DNA of 48,479 nt from Methanococci archaeon (GTDB taxonomy: Archaea; AGJL01; Methanococci; Methanococcales; Methanocaldococcaceae), in NCBI GenBank assembly GCA_013153845.1, contig JAADDS010000005.1, forward strand, positions 1 through 48,479, in the 5' to 3' direction. The position numbers and the translations under genes were made by a program. This document shows, in pieces, positions 2,729 to 10,006 of the stretch. Numbering within the stretch: position 1 is the first letter of the stretch; each line of letters opens with the position of its first letter. The notes beneath the pieces are model-generated. The model was not told where the DNA came from. It saw only the letters and a list, made by a program, of their open reading frames with translations, and did not search any database.

Positions 2729-5700
2729 TTATCCTTTAATAACTCCTAACGGCTTCATCCTTGCAACTTTTAATGATATTCCTGCTTTGTGGCAGGTATC
2801 TGCAACTAAATCAACACTCTTATATGCTTCGGGAGCTTCTTCTGCCATAACTGCTTTTGAATCACTCATTGCTATAATTCCCATTTCTGCCAATCTTTTC
2901 TGTATCTCTTTACCTTTCCATAATTTTAATGCCTTAGCCCTACTTAACTTTCTTCCTGCTCCATGAGCAGTTGAACCAAACGTCTCTTTCATAGCTATCT
3001 CTGTCCCTCTCATTAAATAGGAAGCGGTTCCCATATCTCCTGGAATGATAACTGGTTGTCCAATATCTTTATATTCTTTTGGTATTTGTGGATGTTTTGG
3101 TGGAAATGCCCTTGTAGCTCCCTTTCTATGGACTATAACCTTTACCTTTCTTCCATCTACCATATGTTCCTCTTTCTTAGCTATGTTATGGGCTACATCA
3201 TAGACAATACTCATCTCTAAATCTTCGGCATGTATTTTAAACACTTCCTCAAAGCTCTCTCTAACCCAGTGTGTAATCATCTGTCTATTTGCCCATGCGT
3301 AGTTTGCTCCGCAACACATTGCTTTAAAGTAACTCTGCCCCTCCTCTGATTCAAATGGAGCACACGCCAACTGTCTATCTGGCAATTTTATTCCGTAGTT
3401 TTTAGCTGCTTTCTCCATAATTCTTAAATAGTCGGTGCAGATTTGATGTCCTAAACCTCTTGAACCGGTATGTACTAAAACAACAACTTGATTCTCTTCA
3501 ATGCCATAAATCTCTGCTGCTTCCTCATCAAACACTTTTTCAACATACTGAACCTCTAAGAAGTGGTTTCCACTTCCCAAGCTACCAAGTTGAACTCTTC
3601 CTCTCTCTTTTGCTTTATCTGAAACATAGGAAGCGTCTGCATCCTCCATACATCCATTTTCTTCAATAAACTCCAAGTCCTCCTTCCATCCATAGCCCTC
3701 TTTAACAGCCCATCTAACTCCTTCCTCTAACACATCATCCATAACACTTTTGCTGAACTTTACAATTCCCTTACTTCCCAAACCAGAAGGGACATTTTTA
3801 AATAGTGTTTTTATAAGCTCTTTTATCTTTGGTTGGACTTCTTCTTTTGTTAAATTTGTTCTTATGAGCCGAACTCCACAGTTATGGACAACTATGTTAT
3901 TTGCTATGAAGTTGTGTTCTTTGCTTACTATTCCAACATCATACAATTTTGAATCATAAGGAATTTCTTCAATCTCCTTTATTTTGTCTATTACAAAGCC
4001 ACCTCTAACTCCATATTTTTTAATAAACTCTTCTAATGTTTCAAAATTATTTGCAAAAGTTTTATTTTGTTCTACTTTTGAAATCCCTTCTTTGTTTATA
4101 TTTTCCCATGTAATTAATTTCCTCCTTAGATATTCTGTAATTAATAAAATTTTCTCATCATTACAATATGCATACCCAATTTTAGAGAGATAATTATAAA
4201 GTTCTTTATTGTTTGGACTTATATACAACCTATACATAACCTTTCCATCATACTCTCTAACTTTGTAGATGTTTGCATTTATATCAAATTCTTTTAACAT
4301 TTCTACTAATTCATTTAAATAGTTTATAAGTTCATTTTCAATATCCTTTGTCTTTGAGATTGTTAAAGATATTGAGCTTATGGTATATTTGTGGTTTTTA
4401 GTCATTGATATTGGCTTACTTCCATCTGCTCCAAACAATCCTGCTAAGAAATTTGCTTTTACCCATTTTGGAGATTTCTTTATCCACTCAGGAACTTTTG
4501 GAATTTGACATATTTTTTTACCAATTGGCATTCCCAATTTATGCATGAACAGTGCAAACGCTTTGGAAGCTATTTTTATAAAGTTGTCTTCGCATAAACT
4601 TGTGTATTCATCTCCCCATGCATTTTTTATTTTAACTTCTCTCTTCCTTGAATATATTTTTGAAGATTTTATTCCTAATTTTTCCAAATCTTCTCTAATT
4701 TTAATAAGTGTCTCTTTTTTTCCATAAAATGCTACATACAACCTCTTTCTATCTCCATTTTCTTTAACTATACTTCCATCTCCATAAGCAAATCCTAACA
4801 ACCTTGCAATAATCCCAATATTTTTGTTGTTCATTTTTAGTGGCAATAAATTCCTTTCTTTTAAGTATCTTACTATTTGTACATCATACTCTGCAAAATC
4901 ATTCTCATCCAATATCATCTCATCTGATGGCTCTTCATACTCAACTCCTTCATAAGGATAAACTATAATTTCATCTCCTTCTTTTAGCATACCCATTGGA
5001 ACATAGCCATTTAATGTTAAAACTGGGTGGTCTTTACTTCCTTCTAAAATCCTTCCTGACTCTGTTTTTATCCTTATTATTCTCTCATTTGCATCTCTTT
5101 CAGAGACAAATAATATAGTTGAGTTCTTTTCTCCTTCATCTGGATTATAAATCTTAACATGCAAATCCAATTTTTCTTTTAGTTTTTCTAATTTTATGTA
5201 ATATCTATCGTCTGTTAATATTTTTGAGTTTGACGTGAGACATGATATATCAAATCCCACTCCTCCAGGACATATAACTCCTTCTCTTTGGTCAAAAGCC
5301 GCTACTCCTCCGATACAGTTTGAAACTAAAAAGCTATCTGCTATAAAGTTATGGTCTTTGTGATTTATTGTGAAATCATAAACTTCATCTATATCAACTT
5401 CCTCTATACTTTCAATCTCATCCCAAACTAATCCATCCCCAACCTTTCTTTCTTCAATAAAATCTTCATAGCTCGGGAAGTTTGAAGGAACCCTTATCTC
5501 TTTAATCTCTTTTCCATTCTTTAACTTATACCAAATATCTTTAACAAATCTTTCATCTTCCTTGTTTATATTTAGCAATCTTATAATCTCTGATGGTTTT
5601 TTACCTTCTTCAAACAATTCTTTAACTTTTTCAGCAAGTGCTTTTCTTCTATTTATCTCTTTTTCCCTATACTTTAAAAATGCCACTGCGTAGCATCCAA

Positions 5701-7012
5701 ATTCCTGCCTCTCTCTGTTGTATTCATAACCAATCTTTGCCCATAAGTTTATTAAGTTCTTGGACGTGCCAATTATTGTTAAAACATATTTAACTGTCTC
5801 TGCCCCATCATTTCTTTTGTGAGTTGAGTTTCTTTTTGTAATTGTTGTCTCCACACCAAACTCATTTAATAATTTAACAATATTTTCTAAGAATTTTAAT
5901 GCATCCTCTTTAATCTTTATATCTTTAGCCATCTCTAATGTTGGGAATGTGAATAATGCCTTTCTATCTTTTCTTGGATATGGCTTTCTTAATTCAGCTC
6001 CAAAGAATGATGCTAAGAACAACCTCTTCTGCCACAATTTGCAGTTGAATATCCACTCTGGGAAGTTGTATTTCTTTAACGTCTTGTTTCCAATTGGAAC
6101 GCCCAATGCATATAACAAAACAACTAAACTTGATGCATTTACATAAAATCTATAACATCCCTTTTTATCACCATAGATCCTTGATGGAGTATAGCCAATC
6201 TTTTTAATATCTTCTCTAATTCCTTCTAAATCTTCTAAGTGTTTTGATGAGAAGTGTATAATGCCATCTCCTCTTTTCCCAATAAAGTTCATTGAGCCAT
6301 CTCCAAAGACAAATCCCATAATTTTTAACAAGTAAGGAAGTTTTTTATGGTTGTAGGTTAATGGAATTAAATTTCTCTCTTTTAGTTTTCTTAAGATGAT
6401 TTCTTTACTCTTCTTGGTTAGGTTTAGTTTTCTCATGCATTCAATTATATCATTTTCATTTATAATAACATCATTTGGTGGTTCTTCATATTCAACTCCT
6501 TCATAAGGATAGATAGCAACCCTATCATTTACTTTTAAGTTTTTAAGCTCAACCATTCCGTTTGGTGTATAAAATGGGTGGTCTTCTGTTGCTATCGTCT
6601 CATATCCAAGCTTTGTTCTAACTCTATAGATTTTGCAGTATGGTTTTAATTTAAAGAACTTTTTAACTTCACTTGCTTCTATTTTTTTATCTTCTGTATT
6701 GAATACATTAACTTTTTCATCTTTTAGGCTCTCATAATCTTTTATTCTATAGTAGAATCCATGCTCAGTTAAAACCTTTGCATCTGGGTGGAGACAAAAG
6801 CCATAACCGTAATGTACATCAGGCATGGCTATAGAATACTTGTAAATCCCCGGCAGGCATGCAACATTCGCTATCTGCTCTAAAACCTCTGATTCTAACT
6901 CATCTAATAGGATTTCGTTTAAGTATATCCTCCCCGGAACTCTCATACAATCTTTGTAATCTTTTGGAAGTTCCCATACAACTTCAGAGACCCTTTTTAA
7001 AATATCTTTCAT
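2729..7012 (-). CDS. rtcB: RNA-splicing ligase RtcB containing two inteins
   Basis: RtcB joins 2',3'-cyclic phosphate and 5'-OH RNA ends, using GTP and Mn2+, in archaeal tRNA splicing and RNA repair. The 1427-residue precursor is three extein pieces (residues 1-72, 566-590 and 1045-1427; 480 residues in all, a normal RtcB length) interrupted by inteins at 73-565 and 591-1044. In spliced numbering the active-site residues are visible: Asp95 and Cys98 of GFDISC, the His of SGNHFLE, of [12 protein letters not shown] and of [12 protein letters not shown], and the guanylylated His in [12 protein letters not shown]. The ATG has AGGTGATACT upstream. A TATA-like GTTTATATG about 45 bases upstream suggests its own promoter. 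The ligase should be inactive until both inteins leave, because Cys98 is itself a splice-junction residue. Confidence 0.97.
3881..5242 (-). mobile_element. RtcB intein at the Cys98 site, with intact-looking LAGLIDADG endonuclease
   Basis: This intein occupies residues 591-1044 of the precursor (454 residues). Block A starts [10 protein letters not shown], block B is GSKDHPVLT, and the end is [14 protein letters not shown] followed by the extein Cys, so the standard His-Asn dipeptide is present. Two dodecapeptide motifs, [10 protein letters not shown] and [11 protein letters not shown], both keep their acidic residue, so the homing endonuclease may be active. The insertion point falls at the Mn2+-binding Cys98 of RtcB. 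From memory this is the same point as the single M. jannaschii RtcB intein. Confidence 0.95.
5318..6796 (-). mobile_element. Second RtcB intein, at the Cys73 site, with altered splice and endonuclease motifs
   Basis: This intein occupies residues 73-565 of the precursor (493 residues). Block A is [10 protein letters not shown], block B is ATEDHPFYT, and the C-terminal block ends [13 protein letters not shown] followed by the extein Cys. The penultimate residue is Ser rather than the usual His. The first endonuclease motif, [10 protein letters not shown], is canonical, but the second reads [11 protein letters not shown], with Glu in place of the catalytic Asp and no closing Gly. The endonuclease may therefore be weakened. 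It shares the stretch [11 protein letters not shown] with the other RtcB intein, so the two are related. Confidence 0.95.
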
Positions 7013-7096: not shown

Positions 7097-8116
7097 TTAA
7101 ATTTTTAACTTTATAAATTCGTTAAATGCCTCTCTCGTTGTTCCTACAACCAATCTTAAATATCTATTATTTCCTTCTATAACTTCTTCTAATTTACCTC
7201 TTGCAATGAATTCCTCTCCTTTGAAACATTGTCCAGCGTAAGTATGTGTAAAAGAAACCACTTCTTTTATGTCGGGGTTTGTATAACACTCTACCCTGTA
7301 AGTGGCTGGATTATCAAAGGCATAATCATCATTTAATATTTTCCCTTCTATTTCAATAAAACCTAAGTTGTTATATTTTTTATCCCCATATTCTTCGTTA
7401 ATTTCATTCCACTCTCTTGTAAACAGTAGATCAAACATAGTTCCGTCTACGAGCCCTCTATTGTATTTTCTTTTTTCATAAAATACAAACTCTTCATAGG
7501 TTAGTGTTCCATCTTTGATTCTTTTTTGATAGGCAATTTTCCAGAAATCTTCTGAAAGTGGAGTTAATTTTTTATCTTCAAACGCTTGTTTTAGTGATTC
7601 TCTTGCTTTTTTGTGATTTTCTTTCCCATAGATAACGAAGTCAATATCTGAGTTTTCATTGTTAAGTTTCAGGAGGAGAGATCCGCTAACTCCCATATTT
7701 TTAAGTGAAACTCCGTAATCTTCAAGTATTATAGCCAGTTTTCTACATTTTTTATCTAATTCGTTAAGATCTTGATCTTCATTAACAATCTCATTTAGAC
7801 GTTCTTTTGGCTTTAAAATTCTTTTAATGTCTTCTTTTGGAATAGAATGCATTAATACACTATTTACTTCATCATAAAATAAGTATTTTGGGAATTTTTT
7901 TTCTAAGAATTTATATGCAAGAGATGTATCTGCAATCTTTACGTATTTTCTTCCATCTATTTTCCTAATATTATTTATCGGGATTTCAAAGTCAATATAC
8001 TCGTAGGGAACATATCTTAAAAAAGCGAAAAATCTATCTTTTGGATGAGAATAGGTGTTTACTGCAAAATACAATCCTTCTGTTGTTTCTATAAAGTCCC
8101 TAATTCTAACTTTCAT
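7097..8116 (-). CDS. Polymerase-beta-superfamily nucleotidyltransferase, function unknown
   Basis: This 339-residue protein has a central nucleotidyltransferase core: Gly-Ser at residues 145-146 (MGVSGSLLLK), the DID carboxylates at 157-159 (NSDIDFVIYG), and a probable third Asp at 229 (GTMFDLLFTR). About 130 residues precede the core, and an apparently beta-rich region of about 80 residues follows it (VSFTHTYAGQCFKGEEF). This matches what I remember as the archaeal COG1665-type predicted nucleotidyltransferases; the substrate is unknown. The ATG overlaps the stop of the upstream nuclease-fold gene by four bases, so the two are translationally coupled. rtcB starts 84 bases downstream on the same strand, which makes an RNA substrate attractive but unproven. 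Confidence 0.75.
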   Translation of the reverse strand: MKVRIRDFIETTEGLYFAVNTYSHPKDRFFAFLRYVPYEYIDFEIPINNIRKIDGRKYVKIADTSLAYKFLEKKFPKYLFYDEVNSVLMHSIPKEDIKRILKPKERLNEIVNEDQDLNELDKKCRKLAIILEDYGVSLKNMGVSGSLLLKLNNENSDIDFVIYGKENHKKARESLKQAFEDKKLTPLSEDFWKIAYQKRIKDGTLTYEEFVFYEKRKYNRGLVDGTMFDLLFTREWNEINEEYGDKKYNNLGFIEIEGKILNDDYAFDNPATYRVECYTNPDIKEVVSFTHTYAGQCFKGEEFIARGKLEEVIEGNNRYLRLVVGTTREAFNEFIKLKI

Positions 8117-9639
8117 GCTACCACGTCTGATTTTATCTTTTCTATTCGTTTTGTAACTACTTCGGTATAGAGTTTCCTTAATAGTTCAATATCTAAATTA
8201 ATTTCTCCGTTTTCTATAATAAAAGGTATTATGTGGTTTTTCATGTTTTTATATGATAAGTTATGATCGCTGGTTTCCATTATGTAATCTTTAAATGAAG
8301 CGTTGCTAATTACCAATGCTCCAAAATTTTTTATGTATTCGATTATTAATCTATACGCATCATTTTTCGAGTTTAAAACTTTCATTTCACATTCTTTTAA
8401 TAGCATTTTACAGATCTCTTTCTCTTTTATTTTGTAGTATGTTGCAGTATCCATCACCACAATAATATTTTTAAATCCTGCGTTTTTAATTTTTTTGATT
8501 AAATTACTGATCGCCTGTTCAGATATATTATGTGGATTATTTAAAACGCTGATGGCATCTATGACAACAATCCTTCTTGAGGGTTTTGGAGGATACACCC
8601 TCTTAAAAACTTTTTTCTCTTTCATATATTCTCCAAGGTATGATATTATCTCGCTATTTTCAAGATAGTGCTCTAAATCATCGATAGTTGTAAATTTCGT
8701 AGAGTACCATGGTGGAGATGTTGAATTTGAAAGTTTATTTAGCATATCTTTTTTTATCTTCATAAGTCGCTCTTTTTCTTTTAGTATGTTGTATAATTTA
8801 TTTAGGGTTATTTCTTCATCAATATTCAGATTTGTTAAAACATTTAATAAGTATCCTTCTTCAAATGTCTCTAATCTGAAATTTTCACAGATCTCTTTTA
8901 ATTTTAAATACTCTTCAAGTTCTTTTTTACTACTAACTCCTACGGCTCTTGCTATTCTATACTCTTCCGCTGTTTTAAATCCCCTACTCAATGCATCGTT
9001 ATATTCATAGGCATCTTTAAATCCTCTTTTTAGTGCATCTCTGTATTCATTAGCATCTCCAAAGAAAAATTTTAATGCATTAGTTAACTCTTCAAAGTTC
9101 TTGAATCCTTTGCTCATTGCAAATTTATAAAGATCTACATCTCTTGAAAACGCATGCTCTTCTAAGATTCCGTAGTATAAATATTCAATTATATATTTAT
9201 CATCTATCTTTTTGGCAATCCCTTCTTCCTCAAGTTTTTTAAGTCCTCCTATAAAACCAAGTTCTTTCGCTTTTTTATATTCTTCTATTGACTCAAAGCC
9301 AGAGTTTTTATATTTTTTATACTCTTCAATATCTCCAAAGTGGAGATATTCATAATATTCCTTTGCATTTAATCCTAATGATTTTGCATCTATCATGTCT
9401 TCCAATGTTTTAAATCCTTCTGAGGGTATGTAAAATATCACTCCGTTATCTACAAAAAAGAAAATACTTTCATTATTATCTCTGTATCTGCAAATTACAT
9501 GTTTTCCTAAAACCTTATGTGCTTCTAAAAACTCTTCTATGTTTTTAACTTTAACTTTCGGAAGATCTTCTATTTCATCTACATCAACATATTTCACTAA
9601 CCCAAGCATAATTTTTAAAATATTCGCATCTTTGCACAT
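8113..9639 (-). CDS. Repeat protein with C-terminal NYN/Zc3h12a-like nuclease fold
   Basis: This protein has about 508 residues. Residue numbers here count from an in-frame GTG nine bases upstream of the chosen ATG. The N-terminal half contains tandem helical repeats of about 18-20 residues of the form GF-x-[ST]-x2-EY-x2-A (GFKTLEDMIDAKSLG, GFESIEEYKKAKELG, GFKDAYEYNDALSRG, GFKTAEEYRIARAVG). A charged helical linker follows. From about residue 358 a PIN/NYN-type fold appears: RRIVVIDAISVL, then NIIVVMDTATYYK, SKNDAYRLI and ALVISNASFKDY. This resembles Zc3h12a-like ribonucleases, but some usual acidic or polar positions differ (Ser for Asn after the first Asp, Ala for Asp in ISNAS). I chose the ATG at 9639 because GTGAT sits just upstream. 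It is the first gene of a pair with the nucleotidyltransferase. Confidence 0.7.
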   Translation of the reverse strand: MCKDANILKIMLGLVKYVDVDEIEDLPKVKVKNIEEFLEAHKVLGKHVICRYRDNNESIFFFVDNGVIFYIPSEGFKTLEDMIDAKSLGLNAKEYYEYLHFGDIEEYKKYKNSGFESIEEYKKAKELGFIGGLKKLEEEGIAKKIDDKYIIEYLYYGILEEHAFSRDVDLYKFAMSKGFKNFEELTNALKFFFGDANEYRDALKRGFKDAYEYNDALSRGFKTAEEYRIARAVGVSSKKELEEYLKLKEICENFRLETFEEGYLLNVLTNLNIDEEITLNKLYNILKEKERLMKIKKDMLNKLSNSTSPPWYSTKFTTIDDLEHYLENSEIISYLGEYMKEKKVFKRVYPPKPSRRIVVIDAISVLNNPHNISEQAISNLIKKIKNAGFKNIIVVMDTATYYKIKEKEICKMLLKECEMKVLNSKNDAYRLIIEYIKNFGALVISNASFKDYIMETSDHNLSYKNMKNHIIPFIIENGEINLDIELLRKLYTEVVTKRIEKIKSDVVA

Positions 9640-10006
9640 ATTTATCACTTGTATCTTCCAATTTTTAAATTTTTTAATATTTTTGATACTGTATAGGTGT
9701 AAATAATTGCTAAATAATTATCATTTAAAATATTATTTGAGAATATTCAATTATAAACGCTTTTCTTTAATCTAATGATTAAAAAAAAGAAATATTGACG
9801 TTTAACGATGGAATCTTTTTTTATTGCCTTTTTTATAATTTTTTATTTTGAATTAAACAGATTAGGAGTTTTTTAAAATAAAAGATGTGATCTCTCATTG
9901 AAAATAGGGATATAAGGGCAGATAAAAAAGCAACATAAAAAATTAAAAATATTAAAAATAATTAAAATTAAACTAATCTCAAAAATATCTTAAAATTGCA
10001 AAAGAT
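9640..10006. other. AT-rich intergenic region
   Basis: About 370 bases between the repeat/nuclease-fold gene and eS27. It holds no convincing reading frame and no GC-rich island of the kind that marks structural RNA genes in this AT-rich genome. It should contain the promoter of the gene at 8113-9639 and the 3' untranslated region of the eS27 transcript. Confidence 0.5.

Follow-up and report, generated by a model that had tools for sequence, protein, structure and literature searches.

The rtcB gene of this Methanococci archaeon encodes a precursor of the tRNA-splicing ligase RtcB carrying two distantly related inteins, here designated a and b, which probably home and splice independently of one another, were acquired stepwise, and leave the precursor in no obligatory order. 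The gene lies in the window, the whole 48,479-nucleotide stretch of contig JAADDS010000005.1 that was analyzed, and its parts are listed in Table 1. A first-pass annotation had placed inteins at Cys73 and Cys98 of the spliced protein, each with Cys at +1, and separated by a middle extein of 25 residues; its coordinates and numbering are correct as judged from the open reading frame, from the NCBIfam intein N- and C-terminal splicing regions (TIGR01445 and TIGR01443, each matched in two stretches of the precursor), and from alignment with Pyrococcus horikoshii RtcB (1uc2), and the lengths of the parts agree with it. The match to the Pfam RtcB family, PF01139, is broken into three, and between the fragments lie matches to PF14890 (Intein_splicing) and LAGLIDADG_3; the GC content is 31% in intein a and 29% in intein b, as against 38–44% in the exteins.

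Table 1. Parts of the RtcB precursor gene (positions in the window; residue numbers of RtcB are those of the spliced protein)
Feature	Position	Strand	Length and basis
RtcB precursor ORF	2729-7012	(-)	1427 aa; one frame without stop
RtcB N-extein, residues 1-72, ending ...DVHYGYGF	6797..7012	(-)	72 aa; PF01139 match 1-28
Intein a, before Cys73	5318..6796	(-)	493 aa; splicing-motif matches and confident fold model
Middle extein, residues 73-97	5243..5317	(-)	25 aa; metal ligand Asp95; alignment to 1uc2
Intein b, before Cys98	3881..5242	(-)	454 aa; splicing and endonuclease motifs
Intein b segment of about aa 246-400, second endonuclease half, G030 type	4043..4507	(-)	sequence-type comparison
RtcB C-extein, residues 98-480 and stop, first residue Cys98	2729..3880	(-)	383 aa

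Removal of both inteins leaves a 480-residue RtcB that is collinear with 1uc2 from residue 5 to the end, with a full-length PF01139 match and with the metal and GMP ligands present; Asp95, Cys98, His203, His234, His329, and His404, the ligands listed in PMC10630183, are all in place. Both inserts are absent from homologues, and the alternative that the annotation had named, an extra 493-residue block devoid of intein motifs or belonging to the mature protein in relatives, failed: the motifs are present, and intein-free relatives lack both blocks. In the alignment, residue 98 corresponds to Cys98, a Mn2+ ligand as had been claimed (PMC10630183), and ligase activity would be expected to depend on splicing, as was also proposed. 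Residue 73 is Cys here and Pro73 in P. horikoshii. Within the middle extein, residue 88 is Cys (TGT) here and Ser (AGC or AGT) in all other genomes compared, and residue 97 is Ser here and in G030, a genome of another family, and Asn in the others compared; the Cys at 88 and the Asn97Ser replacement near site b could affect the splicing of b. Directly upstream of rtcB on the same strand (7097-9648) are a gene with a PF01909 nucleotidyltransferase domain and, overlapping it by 4 nt, one with a PF11977 Zc3h12a-like NYN RNase domain, which are possible RNA-related neighbors of the ligase.

The junctions read C...FLVSN/CIGG for intein a and C...VVHN/CGVR for intein b, so that both have Cys1, a C-terminal Asn, and Cys at +1, the terminal residues of class 1 inteins (in which +1 is Cys, Ser, or Thr). 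The block B motif TxxH is TEDH in a and SKDH in b, with Thr replaced by Ser and the His retained. The penultimate residue is His in b and Ser in a, the latter in every orthologue seen. A penultimate His aids the splicing reaction and is common in inteins without being essential; because a lacks it, a is perhaps the slower of the two, and we would bet, from this residue, on a mild kinetic preference for the excision of b before a. Splicing without a penultimate His is on record in works cited by PMC4031507. The two inteins are about 34–36% identical to each other, and each combines two acidic DOD motifs with the fold of a LAGLIDADG homing endonuclease. In b the motifs are GDG and ADG, with a match to PF14528; in a the acids are Asp166 and Glu268, and the fold is assigned from matches to PI-PfuI and I-DmoI. 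A dead endonuclease in a was considered from its second motif, GAEL, but this reading was rejected as unsafe since Glu is an accepted catalytic acid, as in E117 of I-DmoI, a residue that also appears in a PDB title. Modeled alone, intein a has a HINT plus LAGLIDADG fold (pLDDT 92.3, pTM 0.90), and in the PDB it is matched best by TliVMA and PI-PfuI, two inteins with an endonuclease, and by I-DmoI in the endonuclease part. The TM-scores to the whole TliVMA and PI-PfuI inteins are low overall, which reflects a different domain arrangement or uncertain superposition, and the domain-level matches are the safer evidence. In a model of precursor residues 1-1200, built from a shallow alignment, the two intein domains have mostly pLDDT 70–92, the exteins are poor, and the pTM of 0.47 makes the model too poor for judging contacts between the inteins.

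In a comparison of 36 genomes of the order, of which the present one is G000, strong matches to intein a occur in eight, all in RtcB and at the same site. Inteins a and b occur together in G000 and G004, and at the same sites, together with a third intein, c, in G008, G009, G013, and G016; a alone is found in G011 and G012, and b alone in G001, G003, G006, G007, G010, G015, and G030 (the gene of the last being split over two contigs), and RtcB is free of inteins in G005 and most of the second family. The three-intein genes (L040, L041, L045, and L047, respectively) have open frames of 1932–1941 residues; their third insertion, at site c, falls between His234 and Thr235, and intein c, like a, ends in Ser-Asn. 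A Mn2+ ligand thus stands next to both site b and site c. G007 is presumably M. jannaschii, and its possession of b only agrees with the annotation, which gave RtcB of this species a single intein, at Cys98. In the RtcB of a Woesearchaeota (DPANN) contig (L084:6001-7503), site a is the only one occupied; its intein is about 45% identical to the present intein a and ends Leu-Val-Ser-Asn before Cys, and site b is empty. A search of viral contigs for intein a found none. In the intein-free rtcB of G002 (L035, about 1536-1550), the frame is broken by one additional C (GGATTTCGACATAAAT), which lies upstream of site b at a distance of about 10 nt; sequencing error, mutation at an endonuclease target, and frameshifting are alternative explanations. 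Residue 73 is Cys in all carriers of intein a, whereas in Methanocaldococcus without it this residue is Pro (G002, G003, G005), Ala (G001, G006, G007), or Cys (G010); in the second family it is Cys in nearly all genes and Pro in G015. Intein a thus requires Cys73, but RtcB as such does not conserve it, in contrast to Cys98. No paper on a multi-intein RtcB was found in the open-licence literature, although InBase, GenBank annotation, or subscription papers may hold a description; the inteins of sites a and c, for which there are sequence records, may thus be new to the literature.

This distribution bears directly on the order of splicing. On the preferred reading, both inteins consist of a HINT domain that is complete for splicing and has a LAGLIDADG endonuclease nested within it; they were gained separately, at two of the three insertion sites around the metal-binding active site, and each would excise itself after translation, beginning with an acyl shift at Cys1 and proceeding by transfer to the +1 Cys and cyclization of Asn, to give the 480-residue RtcB. 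Whichever intein left first, the remaining precursor would resemble the natural single-intein RtcB of a sister species. No obligatory order is expected because the half-spliced intermediates match the natural a-only and b-only forms, and neither intein is likely to need the other for splicing at its own site; independence within the double precursor is inferred from these single-intein relatives, and the two inteins may be in contact with each other. The annotation had taken the close spacing as unusual and as raising a problem of splicing order, and in both respects it went too far. The small subunit of replication factor C (RFC) in the same genome (L093, G000:C26) has three inteins, the first two of which are exactly 25 residues apart, as they are in G007 (the second was taken to start before Ser, a choice that makes ELNASDERG the sequence of the ligated product), which rules out the RtcB spacing as a record; and in sister species either intein is found singly at its site. 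It is thus quite unlikely that one intein must fold or leave first because the 25-residue middle extein ties two HINT domains together. The nearness of the inteins and the possibly slow splicing of a, with Ser in place of the penultimate His, speak for such a constraint, but each intein occurs alone at its site in sister species, RFC has equal spacing, and in G010, G011, and others neither intein has been lost or kept jointly with the other. Other multi-intein genes of this genome are those of a DNA polymerase, apparently with three (L094, G000:C49), and a PEP synthase-like protein with two (L095, G000:C27).

The preferred reading, two inteins acquired stepwise, is also consistent with the separate histories of a and b. 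The closest relative of the exteins is G011 (96.7% identical in amino acids and 92.5% in nucleotides), which has a without b. Intein a shares 89.0% identity with its counterpart in G016, a genome of another family whose exteins are only 77.5% identical, and 79–81% with those of G004, G008, G009, and G013 of the same genus. This inversion, with intein a of G016 closer than its extein, points to lateral movement of a. In the intein a tree a Methanocaldococcus clade is not rejected (AU p 0.3), and in the extein tree the grouping of G016 with G000, G011, and G012 is weakly rejected (p 0.02); because these tree tests do not prove transfer, the case for it rests on the identity inversion and not on topology. 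Intein b is a mosaic: at informative positions, residues 1-220 and 401-454 are of the Methanocaldococcus type (42 versus 8), and residues 246-400, the second endonuclease half including the second DOD motif, are of the G030 type (60 versus 7). A Fisher test with nearly the same boundaries, which were picked after the data had been seen, gives p ~2e-16. Together with the identity inversion of a, this mosaic is an indirect sign of homing. The codons before site b are ATA TCA (Ile-Ser) only in this genome and G030 among the genomes compared, the others having Asn at −1. From these comparisons, the likeliest course is that an a-only ancestor later gained b by homing, with the mosaic either already in the donor or formed by recombination. 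More tentatively, and with less than even probability, the RtcB locus of the order may be the site of a natural competition in which three positions at the active site are invaded time and again by three homing inteins, genes with Pro or Ala at residue 73 are resistant to a, and recombination with a b of another family has given the present b a different second endonuclease half. If so, the exchange may have changed target recognition, perhaps in step with the −1 Ser codon, which among the sampled carriers of b is common only to this genome and the G030-family allele.

It is very unlikely that the inteins are regulatory, with conditional splicing in response, for example, to redox state or metals setting the time at which the RNA ligase becomes active. 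All three RtcB sites are at the active site, the active-site cysteine of RtcB is sensitive to oxidation (PMC10630183), and inteins of DnaB and RadA splice conditionally (PMC6195587, PMC5790916); however, the presence of the RtcB inteins is patchy among close relatives, both keep endonuclease motifs, as expected of mobile elements, and insertion at an active site is usual for inteins. It is scarcely credible that metagenome assembly created the arrangement artificially, or even just the mosaic b, even though the assembly is a draft of 74 contigs and b has blocks in common with two sequence types. The frame is open throughout, a and b recur together in G004 and with c in four other genomes, some of them on chromosome-sized contigs, and this b has no exact DNA match longer than 26 nt in G030 or longer than 63 nt in G007, so that the sampled sequences are not the joined parts, although unsampled ones could be.

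The precursor can be compared with several known systems. The single-intein RtcB (NCBIfam NF038162; P. horikoshii PH1602, junction at Cys98, PMC4150793) is the same host protein with a homologous intein at the same site b, but the present gene has a further intein 25 residues upstream of that site, and its b differs in type in the second endonuclease half. In the RFC small subunits of G000 and G007, too, two neighboring inteins lie exactly 25 residues apart, in another host protein, at other insertion sites, and with three inteins in all. In haloarchaeal MCM, the neighboring inteins MCM-a and MCM-d home independently within one gene, and Pro at +1 marks uninvaded alleles (PMC10643990); homing was measured there and is inferred here, and uninvaded genes at RtcB site a have Ala as well as Pro at +1. 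DnaB of Mycobacterium smegmatis likewise contains two inteins, whose rates were measured and differ (PMC6195587), but one of these is a mini-intein and their mechanisms differ, whereas each of the RtcB inteins is large, contains an endonuclease, and has class 1-like termini.

The RtcB precursor is a real but ordinary object, a multi-intein gene in an intein-rich genus, and it leaves the picture of RtcB and of protein splicing unchanged; what makes it useful is its place in a complete natural series. The relatives, with no intein, a, b, a and b, or all three, form a ready-made set for the study of interference between neighboring inteins in splicing and in homing, for which the RFC precursor provides a control of equal spacing, and the series hints at a way in which the +1 residue can determine the alleles that are open to an intein.
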